IMG/VR virus record: IMGVR_UViG_3300030202_000599 | Location: 1 to 37,286 of that record | Length of the DNA stretch: 37,286 nucleotides | Origin: a virus | Reading direction: 5' to 3' (one strand) | Shown here: positions 9,982-21,722 of the stretch, piece after piece | Layout: each line of letters starts with the position of its first letter | Numbering within the stretch: position 1 is the stretch's first letter | Notes under the pieces: generated by a model | Told to the model about the DNA's origin: nothing | Database searches by the model: none | Seen by the model: only the letters and a program-made list of their open reading frames with translations | Position numbers and translations under genes: made by a program

Positions 9982-11522
9982 TACATTCCTTTTCCAAGTA
10001 ATCCCCTGCGGAAAAACTCTTGATAGGTAGATACATCGTCAGCCACCGGCTGAGTAATTTCTTGCAACACGTTGCTGATTTCTGCGGAACGACGATCAGA
10101 TGATGGGGCCGCGCCAGCGGCTCGTCTCGCCGCAAAAAAATCTGGTGCCATCAATATGCGCGGCACGGGGGTGGATAAACCGCCAAGGTCAGTGCCAGAT
10201 ATTGCCTGTTTATATGTTTTGTGAAATTCAGGTATGTTGCCCTCGCCAGACATTGGCAACATTGGGTCGGCATCAAACTCGACAACACGACCGCCAGTTG
10301 GTGCCAACATAGCGGACGGATCGTTTACGCGGCTAGACATTTGCGGGTCAGACACAACCATACGAACAGCAGTAACATCAGGGAAGCCGCTGTCTCTAAA
10401 TGTGCTTTTCTCCATTGTGTCGGCAACAGCTTTACGAGCTGCACCTTTACCGGCTGAGTAAAGGTATTTTTCAATATTGGGGCTAGTAATGCCGGGGAAA
10501 TCACTAAACGGTGTTGTCGTTGTTTTTTTACCCGTTTTAGGGTCTTCTTTTGTAACCTTTAAATTTCTGACCTGCTCGTCAAAGTCAGCTATCTTTTTTT
10601 CTGGTATCCATTTTGCTGCCTGTTTTGTCATGTCAACAAGAACATCAGCCACATGATGCGAGAAGTCGCCACCACGTCCGCCCATCGACGTGTATATTCC
10701 TAAAAGACCGGGCGTTTCGCGAGCCTGCTTTACATAACCAGAAATGACACCGGGGTCAGACGCCCAAACAATGCCAAGCTCACGCGATAATTTTTCAGAC
10801 GAAAAGTCTTTTCCGCCGGTCATACGCACGGGGTTTTTCAACTTTACACCCTGCACATGCGTAATTTTTTTGCCCGCCATCGTCATGTCGCCGGGCATCA
10901 ATTTTGCGGTGCGTCCGATCAGGCTCTGTATGTCTAGGTCAGGGCTTCGGGCTAGTGTGTCAAGGTCACGGACAACCGTGCCGCTAAGGTCAGGCATGTC
11001 GCGGCTCAGGTTTTGAAAACCGGGGTCTACAAGCAAACCTTGGTCACCAGCGTCAGCGGTTCTTGCACCGTACTCATACGCACGCCGAGGCAAAAGCAGC
11101 CCCTCGCCTACTTCACGCGGAAGTTGAAACGCAGCGGCGGCCTCGTATAAATTCTGTTCCGCCTCCGGCATCTGTCGTATTTTTGGCCGCTTTTTAGGCT
11201 GTTGCATCAACAGTGTGTCGCTGACGTCTTCCCGCCCACCCATACCAAGCGACCCAGCGGGGCGCTTGGCAAGCAAGCCAGCGCCAGTAAATGCGCCAGC
11301 CAAGTCAGCCGCATCCATAAGCACGTTTTCGGCTGGCAATCCGGTTTCTGGGTCAATGTCAATAGGCAGATCGCCCATAGCGCGACCAACGGTGCGGGCG
11401 GCAGCCTGAACGGGGGCAGGGAAAGAAAAGACACGCTCACCTTCGGGCGTGATCGCGAAAGGCAACAGCATGCCAGAATTGGCATAATCGCCCTGCCCGT
11501 AAAGGCTATCCAGAAGTCCCAT
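9981..11522 (-). CDS. Large protein of unknown function linked to TerL
   Basis: This 513-aa protein has no membrane segment. The ATG at 11522 overlaps the terminase stop (ATGA); a TTG four codons earlier is less likely. The N-terminal 90 residues (GMLLPFAITPEGERVFSFPAP, abridged, then DAADLAGAFTGAGLL) look like a short hydrophobic, helical lead. The middle and C-terminal parts are soluble and charged, with KITHVQGVKLKNPVR, SGYVKQARETPGLLGIY and ISSP-like turns. The position between large terminase and portal is shared by large virion-associated proteins in related phages. It could be packaged and injected, or help packaging; I cannot name a fold. Confidence 0.7.
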   Translation of the reverse strand: MGLLDSLYGQGDYANSGMLLPFAITPEGERVFSFPAPVQAAARTVGRAMGDLPIDIDPETGLPAENVLMDAADLAGAFTGAGLLAKRPAGSLGMGGREDVSDTLLMQQPKKRPKIRQMPEAEQNLYEAAAAFQLPREVGEGLLLPRRAYEYGARTADAGDQGLLVDPGFQNLSRDMPDLSGTVVRDLDTLARSPDLDIQSLIGRTAKLMPGDMTMAGKKITHVQGVKLKNPVRMTGGKDFSSEKLSRELGIVWASDPGVISGYVKQARETPGLLGIYTSMGGRGGDFSHHVADVLVDMTKQAAKWIPEKKIADFDEQVRNLKVTKEDPKTGKKTTTTPFSDFPGITSPNIEKYLYSAGKGAARKAVADTMEKSTFRDSGFPDVTAVRMVVSDPQMSSRVNDPSAMLAPTGGRVVEFDADPMLPMSGEGNIPEFHKTYKQAISGTDLGGLSTPVPRILMAPDFFAARRAAGAAPSSDRRSAEISNVLQEITQPVADDVSTYQEFFRRGLLGKGM

Positions 11523-12922
11523 CAAACCACCCAATTCGTTTTTGGTTTCAAACTGCGATTGTGATTATAACCTCTTGAGTAGCCTCCGGCAAGCGCACCT
11601 TGCTGCGCAAAACTCAGGACAAAAGCATCCGCCACGTCTGGCGACCTCTGGCCGCGTCGCTTCATCTCATCCTTGCTCTCAACCTTCAGCTTCCCCGTCG
11701 ATAAATATTTATAACGGATGCCAGTAAGCTCGGCAATCAACGTGTCGTCGGACGGTATCTTAACGTCACGCGCCTCAAACCACTCCCGCGCCGACCAAAA
11801 CAGCTCGTCGCGCAGGCGGTTAAACTTGTTCTTCAAAGACGCAGTTTCCGACACAGATATGCCAACGGCGGGCATGTCCAGCTCCCTCAGCCGGTCAGCC
11901 AGCCCCGCGCCAAGCCCAATGGCGTCAATATAGATAGCCTGCGGACGCATCGAATACGGCACCGCGTCGTACTCGGAAAGCACAATCCCCGCCAGCTCCA
12001 TCAGATCCTTGTTCTGCCAAGTCTTGATTGGCTCAATTAACACATTGCCCTGACGCTTGGATAACGCGGACCTGTCCGAGCCAAAACGCGCAACATCAAG
12101 ACCCCATATGACCGGAGTAGTGGGACCGGCCTCAACGTCTCTCGTCACCGCATCCTCAACCAGATGCAGCGGCAAAAGCACGTCGTCGGATTGTGTCGGA
12201 AACTCACCCAAAACACGAACCTTAAACACGTTACTTTCGCTGCCATACTTCGCCGCCATCTCCTCAATAAACTTGGGGTCCACATACTCGCCCTCATCGC
12301 AGGACACAGTCACGCAGTGCCACTTATCTCGGTCGCTGTGGAATGCGTCGTAAAAATACCCATCCGAGCGGGTGGGGTTACCGCACATAATAATTTTCGC
12401 ACCGGGGGTAGATAGCGCACCAGAAGCCGTCTCAAAAATCACATTTGGCACCCCAGACGCCTCTTCGACCACAAACAGCATATGCGGCGAGTGAAAGCCC
12501 GCCAAGCTCTCCGGGTTCTCCCTGCGGCTGGTACGAGCCACGGCGAAACTGTCAGGCGCACCCTTCAGGGCAATCTTGTCTGACTTGAACTCCAGCAAGT
12601 CCTTGAACGCGGGCGGCATGTTCCGCGCCCAGCGGTCTATCTCCGTCCACAGAACGTCCGACAACTGGTGGGCCGAGTTCGCCGTCACGGCCACCTTGCA
12701 GGGATAGTGCGTCATCAGCCACCACAGTACGACCCAGCTCTCAAACGCAGTTTTTCCGACACCGTGGCCGGACTTAATAGCGACGCGGTCGTTGCTGGCT
12801 ATTGCGGCGAGTGCCTTGGCCTGCCACGCCTGCGGGGTTGCGCCCAGTACCTGCTCCACAAATAGCGTCGGATCTGCCCGTAGGGCGGCTATGGCTTCGA
12901 CGGTGGCTTGGGTGTCGTTCAT
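11522..12922 (-). CDS. terL: Terminase large subunit
   Basis: This 466-aa packaging motor has an N-terminal ATPase with Walker A SGHGVGKTA (51-59) and Walker B MLFVVEEAS (148-156, catalytic Glu). The C-terminal RNase H-fold nuclease has acidic residues D276 (IWGLDVARFGSD), D333 (IYIDAIGLGAG) and D429/D432 (SPDVADAF). It cuts concatemeric DNA and drives it into the procapsid through the portal. A strong GGAGGT site lies 6 bases before the ATG. The small subunit is immediately upstream after a 165-bp gap that contains an inverted-repeat element. All catalytic motifs appear intact. Confidence 0.95.
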   Translation of the reverse strand: MNDTQATVEAIAALRADPTLFVEQVLGATPQAWQAKALAAIASNDRVAIKSGHGVGKTAFESWVVLWWLMTHYPCKVAVTANSAHQLSDVLWTEIDRWARNMPPAFKDLLEFKSDKIALKGAPDSFAVARTSRRENPESLAGFHSPHMLFVVEEASGVPNVIFETASGALSTPGAKIIMCGNPTRSDGYFYDAFHSDRDKWHCVTVSCDEGEYVDPKFIEEMAAKYGSESNVFKVRVLGEFPTQSDDVLLPLHLVEDAVTRDVEAGPTTPVIWGLDVARFGSDRSALSKRQGNVLIEPIKTWQNKDLMELAGIVLSEYDAVPYSMRPQAIYIDAIGLGAGLADRLRELDMPAVGISVSETASLKNKFNRLRDELFWSAREWFEARDVKIPSDDTLIAELTGIRYKYLSTGKLKVESKDEMKRRGQRSPDVADAFVLSFAQQGALAGGYSRGYNHNRSLKPKTNWVV

Positions 12923-14272: not shown

Positions 14273-14501
14273 CTATCACCTCCGACGTTCCCTGACTAAA
14301 CGGCACTTCAACACTAGCGATAGGCTCATACCCGCGCAACAGTTCTCTCGGCCATATATCTATCTTTACTGCACCATCTACCCGCTGCACGTTTACGGTC
14401 AGCGTCCGCACGTCAATCCAAGTCGACGTACCAATCAGCAAATACTCACGATCCTTGAGTATATCGTCACGCTCGACAATGTCAGAAGGGGATTTCGTCA
14501 T
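14265..14501 (-). CDS. Hypothetical protein (78 aa)
   Basis: I do not recognise this 78-aa protein. It starts with a polar helix (SPSDIVERDDILKD), then shows beta strands (EYLLIGTSTWIDVRTLTVNV, abridged) and an acidic end. Its strong GAGGAG ribosome site is embedded in the last codons of the upstream gene, 6 bases from its ATG, so the two are co-translated. It belongs to the replication/early part of the minus-strand arm. Confidence 0.65.
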   Translation of the reverse strand: MTKSPSDIVERDDILKDREYLLIGTSTWIDVRTLTVNVQRVDGAVKIDIWPRELLRGYEPIASVEVPFSQGTSEVIDD

Positions 14502-15051
14502 TCAACTCCTCCTCAGTGGGTGTGCGTATCTTCTCCACTACCGCACCATCAAACACATGCTTTACCTCTTCAACCGGCTTGCTGGCCTCCCAGTCCTCCA
14601 GTATCCGACCAATCTCATTGACAGAGTAAACCACCATTTCACGATTGTCTCGCTTTACCTTGCTCACCTCGTAATCTGTCGGCACGATTGCCAACACCCT
14701 GCCATCCGGCAAGCTGCCCTCTATCCATTCACCCTTGAGCGGTTCAACGCCCGCCGCTATTGCGGCTTGCTCCAGAGCGGCGATGCCCTTAATCGTCACC
14801 TCAACCTGATGATCCACGTCCTGCATTTTGTCGATGGCATCGTTGAGCCTGTCCATTTGCTGCTCAAATCTATTCCGCAGCTCTGTCGGCACTAGCCAGA
14901 TCACCCTGTCCACACCCCACTTCAGCTCAAACTGAGTAACCCTATCATCGTACCTATGCAGGCTCTGTTGCATCCGTCTCATCGCCCCATTATTTGGCGC
15001 ATGGTAAACCTTGTTTGGCTTCGGCTTACCTCGACCCTTTTTAACTGCCAT
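14482..15051 (-). CDS. Replication-module protein with SSB-like C-terminal tip
   Basis: I do not recognise the body of this 189-aa protein. A basic N-terminus (KKGRGKPKPNK) precedes a helical, charged region (VPTELRNRFEQQMDRLNDAID, abridged; about 55-90) and a mixed alpha/beta part with PDGRVLAIVPTDYEV. The last residues, EEELNDEIPF, closely resemble the acidic DDDIPF tip by which bacterial single-stranded DNA-binding proteins recruit repair and replication enzymes. A strong GGAGG site precedes the ATG. The gene lies next to a repeat-rich intergenic segment and the primase-helicase. It may recruit host replication proteins; this is inference from the tip and context. Confidence 0.7.
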   Translation of the reverse strand: MAVKKGRGKPKPNKVYHAPNNGAMRRMQQSLHRYDDRVTQFELKWGVDRVIWLVPTELRNRFEQQMDRLNDAIDKMQDVDHQVEVTIKGIAALEQAAIAAGVEPLKGEWIEGSLPDGRVLAIVPTDYEVSKVKRDNREMVVYSVNEIGRILEDWEASKPVEEVKHVFDGAVVEKIRTPTEEELNDEIPF

Positions 15052-15072
15052 TTCTGTCCTCCGTTTTAGCCC

Positions 15073-15171
15073 GTCCGTCCGTCCGTCCGGATGTCCGTCC
15101 GGTTCCTAGAGAAAACCGGACAGGACGGACACCGTCCGCTTTGACCGGACACTGTCCGCCGGACACCGGAC
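15073..15171. other. GTCCG motif cluster, candidate replication origin
   Basis: This non-coding stretch holds 13 copies of the pentamer GTCCG: eight on the plus strand and five on the minus. The left half is a run of direct copies. The right half alternates orientation and forms stems, including GTCCGGTT / AACCGGAC (15097-15121, 9-base loop) and CGGACA / TGTCCG around 15150. It separates the primase-helicase gene from the SSB-tip protein gene. Iterated short sites beside a RepA-like helicase are typical of plasmid and phage origins, and some TOPRIM primases recognise GTC. No origin activity can be read from sequence alone. Confidence 0.55.
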
Positions 15172-15183
15172 ATTTTTCGATAA

Positions 15184-17010
15184 CTACTTGTTATCATTGA
15201 TAAGCCATACCTTGTTTTTGTCCGCCGCAACCAAACCAAGCTCAATTAACGCGTGTCTGGCGTCTCCGGCCCTCCGGCGGTCCAAATCTGGGCATTTTTG
15301 CCTGTGTTCCTCGTGCCATAATGACGCCGCGACAACCTTGTTTCCGCTGTCGATCACGACGCTTCTGAGCGCCTCCAGAGCGATCTGCTGATTAACTGAA
15401 AGCCCCTTTGCCTTCTTCTTTTTTACCGGCTGTTCGCCGTCGACCCGTGACAACACAACCGACGTTCCCTCAATGAGCGCAACCTCGGTCATCTCAAACA
15501 CCTGCTCATCCGCTGGCTCTGCGTCCTTCTGTTTCTCGCAACGCATGTAAACGAGGTTCTCGTCCTTGCTGACCACCAGCGACGTATCAACAGCCCCCAG
15601 AAGGGCGCTGGAGCCACGCATACCGCGTGTACTGTCCTTGCCGCTATGATGCACTCCGATAAACGCGCAACCGCAGTGTGCCTTGATACTATCCGCCGCA
15701 GAAACCCACAGTCCAAGCTCGGTGGCACTGTTTTCGTCTGCCCCGACGAGTGATCTGGCGACGGTATCGCAGAACACGACCGACCAGCCCGTGCCAGCCT
15801 TGTCGATTGAACGCATCAGCTTTTCCACGTCTGCCTGTTCACGAAAATTCACGGCGATGGGCAAAACGTGAAGATTCTTGTTATCGCGCACCTTGTTATG
15901 TGCCTCCCACGCATTGAGGCGCTTGCCAAGGCCGCCGACGCCCTCACCGGCTATGTAAAGCACCTTGCCCTGCTTGGTTGCCATGCCCTGCCACGGCACA
16001 CCGTTTGCAATCGACAGAGCCATGTCTAGAGCGATAAACGACTTACCGGCTCCCGGTGCGCCGTACATTACGGTCAGGCCATGCTGCGTTATGATGCCCT
16101 TGTCGCCCTCTCCTATCGTCCACTCAATCGGCGGCATATTGCGGATGTAATCGGCACCGACAAAATCGAAGTAGTCGAGCCCGTCGCTTACCTCTGGCTC
16201 CGGCGCATCAACTGGAGCCGCGGCAATGACCGGCGCTGCCTTAACCTCTGCCAGCATATCCTTGACACTGCGGTTATCCAGATAGTCGACCACGTCGCCC
16301 TTTTCCGGCAGGCCCGACAAATCCACGCGCTTTACCTGCTTGGCTGTATCAAATATATTGGCGATCACGACTTCAGCGTGTGCGGCTCCGGCGTCGTCTG
16401 CATCTGGCAGGACCACAACGCTCCTACCGGCAAACCACTTGTTAAGATCTGGCTTCCAATTCTTTGCCCCGCCGTGATTGGTGGTGGCAATCAATCCCTC
16501 TTTAACGAGCCGGTTTGCAGCCTTCTCACCCTCCACGATAAATACCGGCGCTTCTGGGTTAAGTATCATACTGTCAAGCATGTACGGGACCGGTATTACA
16601 CCGTCCATGTTATGTATCCAGCCACCCTTGCCGTCCGGCCTGACCTGACGAAACGTCTTTGGCTCAAACCGGCGCACCTGATAGACCACCTCACCCTGAT
16701 CGTCGACGTAGTCATAGACCGCGCTCATAAAGCGTGCGGGCGTCAGTGTCTGCTGGCTCTGGCGCTGGATACCAAACTTGCGCTCTAATATCTCCGGTAT
16801 TGTGCCAAGCATTGACGTGCTTTCATGCGCCCGCACCAGATCGATAACCCCGCCGCCCTCGTTGTTCTCAAAGTCGAACCAAGTGCCTTTGCGAAGGTCA
16901 AGTTCCTTTGAGCCGTGCGTTCCCCAGCGTAGTATGTGACCCCGCCGGACCGCTGGCTCCCCCCAATATGCGGTTGCTACCGCCTCGGCATGTGCCGCAA
17001 TATTTGTCAT
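15184..17010 (-). CDS. TOPRIM primase fused to RepA/AAA_25-type helicase
   Basis: This 608-aa protein has three parts. An N-terminal primase-like region (about 1-90) has GTWFDFENNEGGGVIDLV but no zinc-finger cysteines. The TOPRIM domain has E160 (FIVEGEKAA) and D203/D205 (LPDADDAG). The RecA/RepA-type ATPase has Walker A GAPGAGKS (317-324), Walker B WSVVFCD (409-415) and GVHHSGKD around 452-459. A final winged-helix-like segment (about 545-600) follows. It should unwind the origin and lay primers for host DNA polymerase, since no phage polymerase is visible. A GAGGG site precedes the ATG. A GTCCG cluster lies right after its stop. Confidence 0.9.
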   Translation of the reverse strand: MTNIAAHAEAVATAYWGEPAVRRGHILRWGTHGSKELDLRKGTWFDFENNEGGGVIDLVRAHESTSMLGTIPEILERKFGIQRQSQQTLTPARFMSAVYDYVDDQGEVVYQVRRFEPKTFRQVRPDGKGGWIHNMDGVIPVPYMLDSMILNPEAPVFIVEGEKAANRLVKEGLIATTNHGGAKNWKPDLNKWFAGRSVVVLPDADDAGAAHAEVVIANIFDTAKQVKRVDLSGLPEKGDVVDYLDNRSVKDMLAEVKAAPVIAAAPVDAPEPEVSDGLDYFDFVGADYIRNMPPIEWTIGEGDKGIITQHGLTVMYGAPGAGKSFIALDMALSIANGVPWQGMATKQGKVLYIAGEGVGGLGKRLNAWEAHNKVRDNKNLHVLPIAVNFREQADVEKLMRSIDKAGTGWSVVFCDTVARSLVGADENSATELGLWVSAADSIKAHCGCAFIGVHHSGKDSTRGMRGSSALLGAVDTSLVVSKDENLVYMRCEKQKDAEPADEQVFEMTEVALIEGTSVVLSRVDGEQPVKKKKAKGLSVNQQIALEALRSVVIDSGNKVVAASLWHEEHRQKCPDLDRRRAGDARHALIELGLVAADKNKVWLINDNK

Positions 17011-20555: not shown

Positions 20556-21517
20556 TGGTAGGCAAAAGAACACCGGACGATATTTTAACCGCGTCAGTAA
20601 TTCCTGTCGCAGCGAACTTATCACCGTACAGAACACCCAACGACCAGCTTGCAAAGGCACTGGCCGTGATTGAGGGCAAACCTGACCCCGACCCGTTCAC
20701 TGGTAACGAGGCGACCGAGTGGGGCAACCACCTTGAAGCCATCATTCTGACCATTGCGGCAGAGCGGCTTGGCCTGACCGACCTGCAACTGGAACACGAC
20801 GCGCTGTTCCACGACAAGATACCGTTTGCCGCGTCGCTTGACGGCACGGCTGACGGAGGCTTGGGGCATGAGGTCGTGACCGACGCATCCAAGGGCATCT
20901 ATTGCCCGGAGGGTCCGGTCTATGTCGACGGCGTCGGAGTGTTGGAGAGCAAGGCAACGAGCAGTAGGCCGGAAGACGCCCCAGCGCCCCACAGAGGGCC
21001 GTTGCAGCTCCAAGGGCAGCTTATGTGCGCTAAACGCACTTGGGGCGCTGTATGCGTCTTATACGGCGGTGTAGAGCTAAGAATATTCCTTTACCAAGCC
21101 AACGCGGCTCGACAAGCCGAGATCGTTGACATTGTCGAGGATTTTGAGCGCCGCAAGTTCGACATTGACTGGTATCCGGTCCTGACCAGCTCTGACGGTA
21201 ACACCGCATATCCGAGAGTGGACGACGGGGCCGAGCCGCTTGAGCTGGCCGGTGAGAACGTCGACTGGGCCGAGCAGCTTGTCAATGCGAAGGCCGCAAA
21301 GAAAGCTGCTGAGGTCGACATAGATGAGGCTGAGGCAGCTTTAAAGGAGCATATGGGATCGCATGAGGAGGCGGTCGCCCTGATCGGCAACCGGCGGCAC
21401 GTTATCAGGTGGCCCATGCGGAACTTCAAAGCGCAACCGGCCAAGACAACTGCCGCCAAGCCAGCCCGCATAGCAAGGCAAACAACTCTAACTGTAAAGG
21501 TGTTTGATGATGATTGA
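20555..21517 (+). CDS. YqaJ-type exonuclease/recombinase nuclease
   Basis: This 320-aa protein shows the YqaJ/lambda-exonuclease fold markers: FTGNEATEWGNHLEAII (E61), FAASLDGTADGG (D97), VGVLESKATSS (E131, K133) and PLQLQGQLMC (Q151, Q153, Q155). It should digest one strand of double-stranded DNA ends for single-strand annealing. The ATG at 20555 overlaps the HNH stop (TAATG). An Arg/Ala/Lys-rich C-terminus (about 285-310) may bind DNA. No clear Bet or Erf annealase is seen nearby, so a partner could be one of the unknown genes or a host protein. Confidence 0.85.
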   Translation: MVGKRTPDDILTASVIPVAANLSPYRTPNDQLAKALAVIEGKPDPDPFTGNEATEWGNHLEAIILTIAAERLGLTDLQLEHDALFHDKIPFAASLDGTADGGLGHEVVTDASKGIYCPEGPVYVDGVGVLESKATSSRPEDAPAPHRGPLQLQGQLMCAKRTWGAVCVLYGGVELRIFLYQANAARQAEIVDIVEDFERRKFDIDWYPVLTSSDGNTAYPRVDDGAEPLELAGENVDWAEQLVNAKAAKKAAEVDIDEAEAALKEHMGSHEEAVALIGNRRHVIRWPMRNFKAQPAKTTAAKPARIARQTTLTVKVFDDD

Positions 21518-21722
21518 TGTACCGTTAACCAAAGCGCAGGCGGAGCTGCGCAACGTGATCGACAGGTATGCCCGCCGGTATGGCTACACGCCGACGATCA
21601 ACGAGCTATCCGATAAAACAGGGAAAAGCATGTCACAAATCCACCGGCTAATGACCGGGCTCATTGAGCGCGGCGCAGCGGAAAAGGTGGCTGGCAAGGC
21701 CAGAGCGTTTAGGCTACTGTAG
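21507..21722 (+). CDS. LexA-like winged-helix protein
   Basis: This 71-aa protein resembles only the DNA-binding domain of LexA. The N-terminal LTKAQAELRNVIDRYARRYG (abridged) helix precedes a helix-turn-helix GYTPTINELSDKTGKSMSQI (abridged) with a wing GAAEKVAGKARAF. There is no Ser-Lys peptidase domain, so it cannot self-cleave. AAAGGTG precedes the ATG at 21507 (21510 also possible), which lies inside the exonuclease gene's end. It may regulate phage or host SOS-type promoters. Confidence 0.75.
   Translation: MMIDVPLTKAQAELRNVIDRYARRYGYTPTINELSDKTGKSMSQIHRLMTGLIERGAAEKVAGKARAFRLL

Follow-up and report, generated by a model that had tools for sequence, protein, structure and literature searches.

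The array of GTCCG words that directly follows the primase-helicase gene of this ocean phage is very probably its replication origin, with the helicase serving as its own initiator and with the C-terminal winged helix of the helicase and the array together forming a cassette that can be exchanged between relatives, a reading drawn from comparison of sequences. The whole stretch of DNA analysed (the window) is the 37 286-nt IMG/VR record IMGVR_UViG_3300030202_000599, and the coordinates of the features discussed are collected in Table 1.

The sequence-only reading had placed a candidate origin here on the strength of 13 GTCCG pentamers, eight in one orientation and five in the other, within about 100 bp, and the count bears this out (plus-strand copies at 15073, 15077, 15081, 15085, 15093, 15097, 15134 and 15154; minus-strand copies at 15117, 15126, 15146, 15160 and 15167). 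Dinucleotide-preserving shuffles of the gap (2000 trials) gave at most six copies of GTCCG and at most nine of any 5-mer, and no other stretch of this length in the window has so dense a cluster of a single 5-mer or 6-mer, the next densest being poly-A. Counted across the window, GTCCG is at about its chance frequency (58 observed versus 52.9 expected, with 45 of the 58 outside the gap), so the enrichment is confined to the gap. The stem-forming inverted pairs that had been described are also real, as the gap strand, taken as single-stranded DNA, has a predicted fold of −35.5 kcal/mol (z = −4.7 relative to shuffles). The gap is 59% GC and offers no obvious AT-rich stretch for unwinding. Two terminator-like matches, one per strand, fall in the gap (the region total is nine, against a shuffle mean of 6.4, sd 3.5), and a guessed pattern, GTCCGNCCGGACA, had zero occurrences in the phage's own record. 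The change in GC skew that might have been expected near the site does not occur at 15.1 kb; the skew reverses sign around 18.5 and 22.7 kb, together with the orientation of the genes.

Table 1. Features of the replication region, in window coordinates
Feature	Position	Strand	Basis or remark
Downstream gene, 189 aa, DEIPF tip; far edge of cassette	14482..15051	-	Near-unchanged between phages with different words
Intergenic gap	15052..15183		Exactly 132 nt from helicase stop (15184) to downstream-gene start (15051)
GTCCG array (iterons), 13 copies	15073..15171	.	Position count
Distal arm	15073..15101	.	Six copies, single orientation (- strand reading: CGGAC)
Central imperfect palindrome GTCCGGTTTTCTCTAGGAACCGGAC	15097..15121	-	Equivalents in most relatives
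Core CTAGG, class CT(A/T)0-3AGG	15105..15109	-	75 nt past helicase stop
Helicase-proximal arm	15117..15171	.	Seven copies, mixed orientation (- strand reading: 5 GTCCG, 2 CGGAC)
Primase-helicase, candidate initiator, 608 aa	15184..17010	-	PF13481 AAA_25, PHROG, RSF1010 RepA likeness, model
Winged-helix domain, candidate origin-binding domain, aa 535-605	15196..15408	-	AF2 model H-E-H-H-E-E, Foldseek
Recognition helix H3, aa 578-590 (RRRAGDARHALIE)	15241..15279	-	Predictive columns and models

The primase-helicase consists, in order, of an N-terminal primase-like part, a RepA-type RecA-fold ATPase (residues ∼290–522), a disordered linker (residues 526–534) and a C-terminal winged helix. Its earlier label of ‘RepA-like’ holds: the protein matches PF13481 AAA_25 (E = 2.8e-37) and RSF1010 RepA, its sole sequence relative in the PDB (1g8y, profile E = 1.1e-8), rather than an SF3 helicase of the P4 alpha family, and its model (mean pLDDT 83) aligns with 1g8y with a TM score of 0.77 on the target, giving a RepA-like RecA-fold ATPase; the predicted fold matches T7 gp4 and Twinkle as well as RepA. 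The N-terminal part is primase-like through PHROG DNA primase/helicase families. A Toprim domain there is weakly suggested: the domain search gave no Toprim match in the window helicase, and in relatives Toprim is sub-threshold in L105, just reaches the threshold in L125 and is present as Toprim_3 in the distant L110. The C-terminal winged helix is predicted to exist as a separate domain, which Foldseek places closest to the winged helices of Cdc6/ORC (TMq ∼0.69, each with a weak E of ∼0.01); by sequence it matched no solved structure, including the P4 domain. The protein encoded on the other side of the gap ends in DEIPF, which by eye is an SSB-like tip; it matched no family and, when compared with isolated phages, gave no match.

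Related loci were collected from metagenomic collections, in which many contigs are fragments, beginning with 31 close loci and continuing with 80 viral and 80 bacterial-genome loci. The close set comprises 78 usable loci, of which 48 representatives differ by more than 4% in helicase sequence. In every close relative with a readable gap an array occupies the same position, directly 3′ of the helicase gene and inside a post-helicase gap of 86–205 nt (about 78 relatives), and in nearly all of them the distal arm is kept in one orientation while the helicase-side copies are typically mixed. The expectation that the site would be conserved in relatives was thus right for the array and its place and wrong for the literal GTCCG, which is replaced clade by clade. 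The words of 14 helix classes among the 78 loci are GTCCG, GTCCG with GTCACG, TCCGAT, TACGAT, GTTATA, GTCGC, CCGACC, TGTGA, CGCACG, CCCCAC, CACCC, ATCTCAT, CACACG and ATATCCG, with the qualification that one analysis sorted the loci by the sequence of the helix and another by the commonest word, and that the CACCC and CACACG arrays are less regular, so that their word is less sharply defined; one further locus beyond these classes, L101, has ATCGCA. In L113, L115, L118, L140 and L143 the array falls inside the last part of the helicase ORF or straddles its 3′ end, and owing to this overlap the predicted C-terminal tails of these helicases are repetitive. A separate observation concerns L156 (Desulfovibrio piger), in which two arrays follow one another over the helicase 3′ end and the next 250 nt, one of CGGGACA words within the 3′ coding end and one of CGGTACA words past it, each with a core of its own (CACACACCTTTAGGTGTGTC and CACACCCCTTTAGGGGTGTA), as if an origin had been duplicated or replaced.

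Change matching the change of word was looked for in the helicase and in its downstream neighbour. Once the other segments were allowed for, similarity between arrays was predicted best by the helicase C-terminal domain, with a partial Mantel value of 0.27 (p = 0.001, kinship uncorrected), the values for the other segments being 0.10 for the ATPase, 0.04 for the downstream ORF and 0.01 for the primase. Nine of the top 20 array-predictive helicase columns fall in residues 578–591, that is in H3 or one residue past it (hypergeometric p about 5e-11, a guide value uncorrected for shared ancestry), and it should be noted that the structure model placing H3 was obtained after the columns had been ranked. 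A helix pattern, RxR[FAS]..[AVLI][RK], is found with all 17 GTCCG arrays of the close set and with none of the 61 others, and in the distant set with six of 11 GTCCG loci against two of 49, several of these loci being interrelated; the Mantel, hypergeometric and Fisher tests carry no ancestry correction and their p-values are to be taken as guides. A word that changes in step with a recognition helix is a stronger argument for binding than an invariant word would be. The comparative evidence is strong that the array word is read by the recognition helix of the helicase, as judged from these correspondences.

Natural exchanges between near-identical phages answer the concern over shared ancestry better than these uncorrected statistics. 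L037 and L043 are 98% identical in the primase, 98% in the ATPase and 94% in the next protein and only 25% in the winged helix, and their words are GTCCG and TACGAT respectively; near residue 530 the DNA identity falls from 1.00 to about 0.4, and at the next gene it is back at 0.84–0.98. L054 and L058 give the same picture (primase 99%, ATPase 96%, winged helix 26%, next protein 95%), and L045/L072, L047/L051 and L094/L099 repeat the exchange pattern with other words. These pairs show the candidate reader domain and the array travelling jointly as one adjacent cassette while the downstream gene stays behind, and the putative start site and its reader appear to be swapped as a single unit between relatives. 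A second exchange boundary is seen inside the helicase gene in L037/L044, L054/L035 and similar pairs, where primase DNA is at least 92% identical and the ATPase domains only about 63–67%, as if two ATPase lineages were also being swapped. In ICP1 the nuclease Odn mimics the DNA-binding part of an initiator and cleaves origins that match it, so that a swap of replicon can be advantageous (PMC8263062), and by analogy a pressure of this kind could lie behind the exchanges of words in the present phages. Phages with differing words do co-occur in samples; same-sample pairs sharing a word numbered one of 23 against 2.1 expected, an over-dispersion that is not significant (P = 0.36).

In contrast to the flanking words, the CT(A/T)0–3AGG core stays constant, also in prophages and isolated phages whose helicases share no more than about 30–40% identity. 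It forms the tip of the mid-array palindrome in 44 of the 48 close-set representatives, and the inverted arms around it change together between clades. The distant set comprises 60 loci, presumably prophages, from proteobacterial, actinobacterial, planctomycete and other genomes, with helicases about 26–47% identical to that of the window over the matched part. When stretches of up to ∼13 kb were searched, 35 of the 60 loci had the start of their strongest 6-mer cluster between −30 and +130 nt relative to the helicase stop, and 47 had it between −280 and +130 nt. A strict core hairpin lies near the helicase stop in 17 of the 60 (1.2 expected), beside helicases whose front ends are of Toprim, AEP-like or DnaB-N type, and because these front ends vary the core seems, by inference, to be linked to the helicase or to a common host step rather than to a single primase type. 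Among isolated phages the array layout was found in RHph_N65 (GGCGGAGAT) and 16-3 (GCGTGACA); no such array was seen after the helicase in Trine, Courthouse and Mae-JY30 and none was evident in phi673, Vibrio 1269 and prophi79-1. Of the replication-region DNA of the window, only a short segment within the helicase gene could be matched to isolated phages.

Other functions for the array have to be weighed against these results. It might be an operator, bound by the winged helix or by a regulator and controlling the downstream gene, with replication starting elsewhere; the array does lie directly upstream of the start codon of that gene in a co-oriented gene block, and initiator binding sites frequently repress too. 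However, the array follows the helicase when the downstream gene is a different one, both in distant prophages and in L105, where another gene has taken its place and the array is retained, it runs in or across the end of the helicase ORF at several loci, and a search of the gap found no promoter-like site, so that we think an operator in place of an origin unlikely, origin and repressor binding not being mutually exclusive. The stable predicted fold and the co-variation of the inverted arms could also be taken to mean that the array works as RNA, in the form of a folded leader or intergenic structure controlling translation or mRNA processing, but co-variation of the arms fits RNA and DNA alike, the fold explains neither the direct repeats nor the tracking of the recognition helix by the word, some arrays overlap coding sequence and an Rfam search of the gap returned no family above the cut-off, and a function as RNA is accordingly very improbable. 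Recognition by another protein, the array being a terminase pac site, a partition centromere or a target of the downstream DEIPF protein, draws on the fact that pac and par sites can be iterated too; the DEIPF protein was ruled out as the reader, since its gene is near-unchanged (94–98% DNA identity) where the words differ and its partial Mantel value is the 0.04 given above, and we hold a reader other than the helicase to be highly unlikely. The suggestion in the sequence-only reading that GTC marks the points where a T7 gp4-like primase would start its primers, for which one could cite the presence of GTC in every copy here and the overall resemblance of the full model to T7 gp4 and Twinkle, is scarcely credible, because words at the same place in relatives lack GTC (GTTATA, TACGAT, TGTGA, CCCCAC and ATCTCAT, the first two despite near-identical primase domains) and because the word tracks the winged helix and not the primase. 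What survives of the origin as first proposed is therefore the iterated sites beside a RepA-type helicase, probably bound by that protein, their local enrichment and their conserved place, while T7-type priming and the skew change fall away.

If the array is the origin, initiation might proceed as follows. The C-terminal winged helix would bind GTCCG words on both sides of the central palindrome, and this binding would load RepA-type ring helicases at the core, as the examples of RSF1010 RepA, SaPI Rep and P4 alpha suggest. Melting would then expose the palindrome, and, more speculatively, its CT(A/T)nAGG tip may mark the start of unwinding or priming, after which the fused primase and the host polymerase would begin replication. 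Recombination that swaps the cassette of winged helix and array would create a new origin specificity in one event.

The window encodes a large terminase, and portal, head and tail genes are inferred from its list of ORFs and from the gene order of phage C72C1 (OQ984150.1, 34.9 kb), which has a terminase 75% identical and a similar gene order (window 11522–12922 plus the structural genes). The replication module of C72C1 differs, with an annotated replication initiation protein, indicating that whole replication modules also vary between relatives. Elsewhere in the window (21504–21722) a small protein with a LexA-type DNA-binding domain (PF01726, E = 1.9e-8) is a possible repressor.

We put at about even the chance that one origin design is common to a wide range of phages and prophages from several bacterial phyla. 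In this design a RepA-type helicase with a C-terminal reader would be paired with adjacent clade-specific iterons and a near-universal palindromic CT(A/T)0–3AGG core. Selection for new origin specificities that escape satellites, competitors or nucleases directed at origins would favour the joint exchange of reader helix and iterons, and the core would be a conserved loading or priming site recognized independently of the iterons. The pairing of helicase and array predicts origin, initiator and specificity determinant from sequence alone for many uncultured phages and prophages, and the ∼14 helix/word classes with their natural domain swaps offer material for working out how winged helices recognize their words. 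Because nearly identical phages differ in reader and origin, it becomes testable whether phages alter origin identity to evade origin-directed competitors or satellites, and a core that is constant amid changing words, beside Toprim, AEP-like and DnaB-N helicases, raises the question of its recognizer.

Several known systems share parts of this arrangement. P4 alpha has an SF3 helicase, the ATPase of SCCmec Cch2 belongs to a family other than that of the window helicase, and lambda O type specificity involves a comparable joint swap of origin words and initiator DNA-binding domain. In PLE RepA/ori and Odn, too, origin words and the initiator's DNA-binding domain swap jointly (PMC8263062), but in PLE RepA this domain sits at the N-terminus, and the initiator does not belong to the RepA-type helicases. 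pRN1 orf904 and phage BIP-1 likewise have a stem-loop downstream of the replication gene (that 3′ of the primase-helicase-winged-helix gene of pRN1 is needed for its replication; PMC4234260), with the differences that there the primase is AEP, the helicase SF3, iterons are lacking and no specific binding was detected. In RSF1010 the helicase, primase and iteron-binder functions, which act together with hairpins (PMC4234260), are spread over three separate proteins, RepA, RepB′ and RepC, whereas here they are fused, the winged helix belonging to the helicase rather than to a separate RepC; the window has a palindrome in its gap, and RepA is the closest solved helicase (1g8y). P4 alpha does combine primase, helicase and C-terminal winged-helix origin binding, acting on repeats, in one chain (PMC4234260), as the window protein would, though the latter has a RepA-type helicase. 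SCCmec Cch2 uses its C-terminal domain to bind three 5-nt iterons, arranged as direct repeats, that lie in the gap past the cch2 gene (PMC7581432), and its primase is a separate protein (CCPol-MP); no report of exchanged reader-plus-origin cassettes was found there. According to a passage in PMC7581432 that cites Ubeda 2007, the C-terminal domain of SaPI Rep binds two sets of iterons just downstream of its gene, and PICI origins lie 3′ of rep (PMC6092414), so that iterated sites directly 3′ of the helicase gene, in two sets, are common to SaPI/PICI rep-ori and the present site, where recognition by the C-terminal domain is predicted too. PICIs are, however, drawn with an AT-rich region flanked by the iteron sets, where the window has two arms around a palindrome with a short conserved A/T core, and the element here is a phage with a large terminase and inferred structural genes, not a satellite island, and has a RepA-type RecA-fold AAA_25 helicase. 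As helicase type and element type differ, we do not place the present system in the P4 alpha or the SaPI family. No report of such a helicase–origin pairing was found in the openly licensed literature, which does not imply its absence elsewhere. Taken as a whole, the layout resembles those of SaPI/PICI rep-ori, SCCmec Cch2 and P4 alpha, but is built on a helicase of the RSF1010 RepA type.
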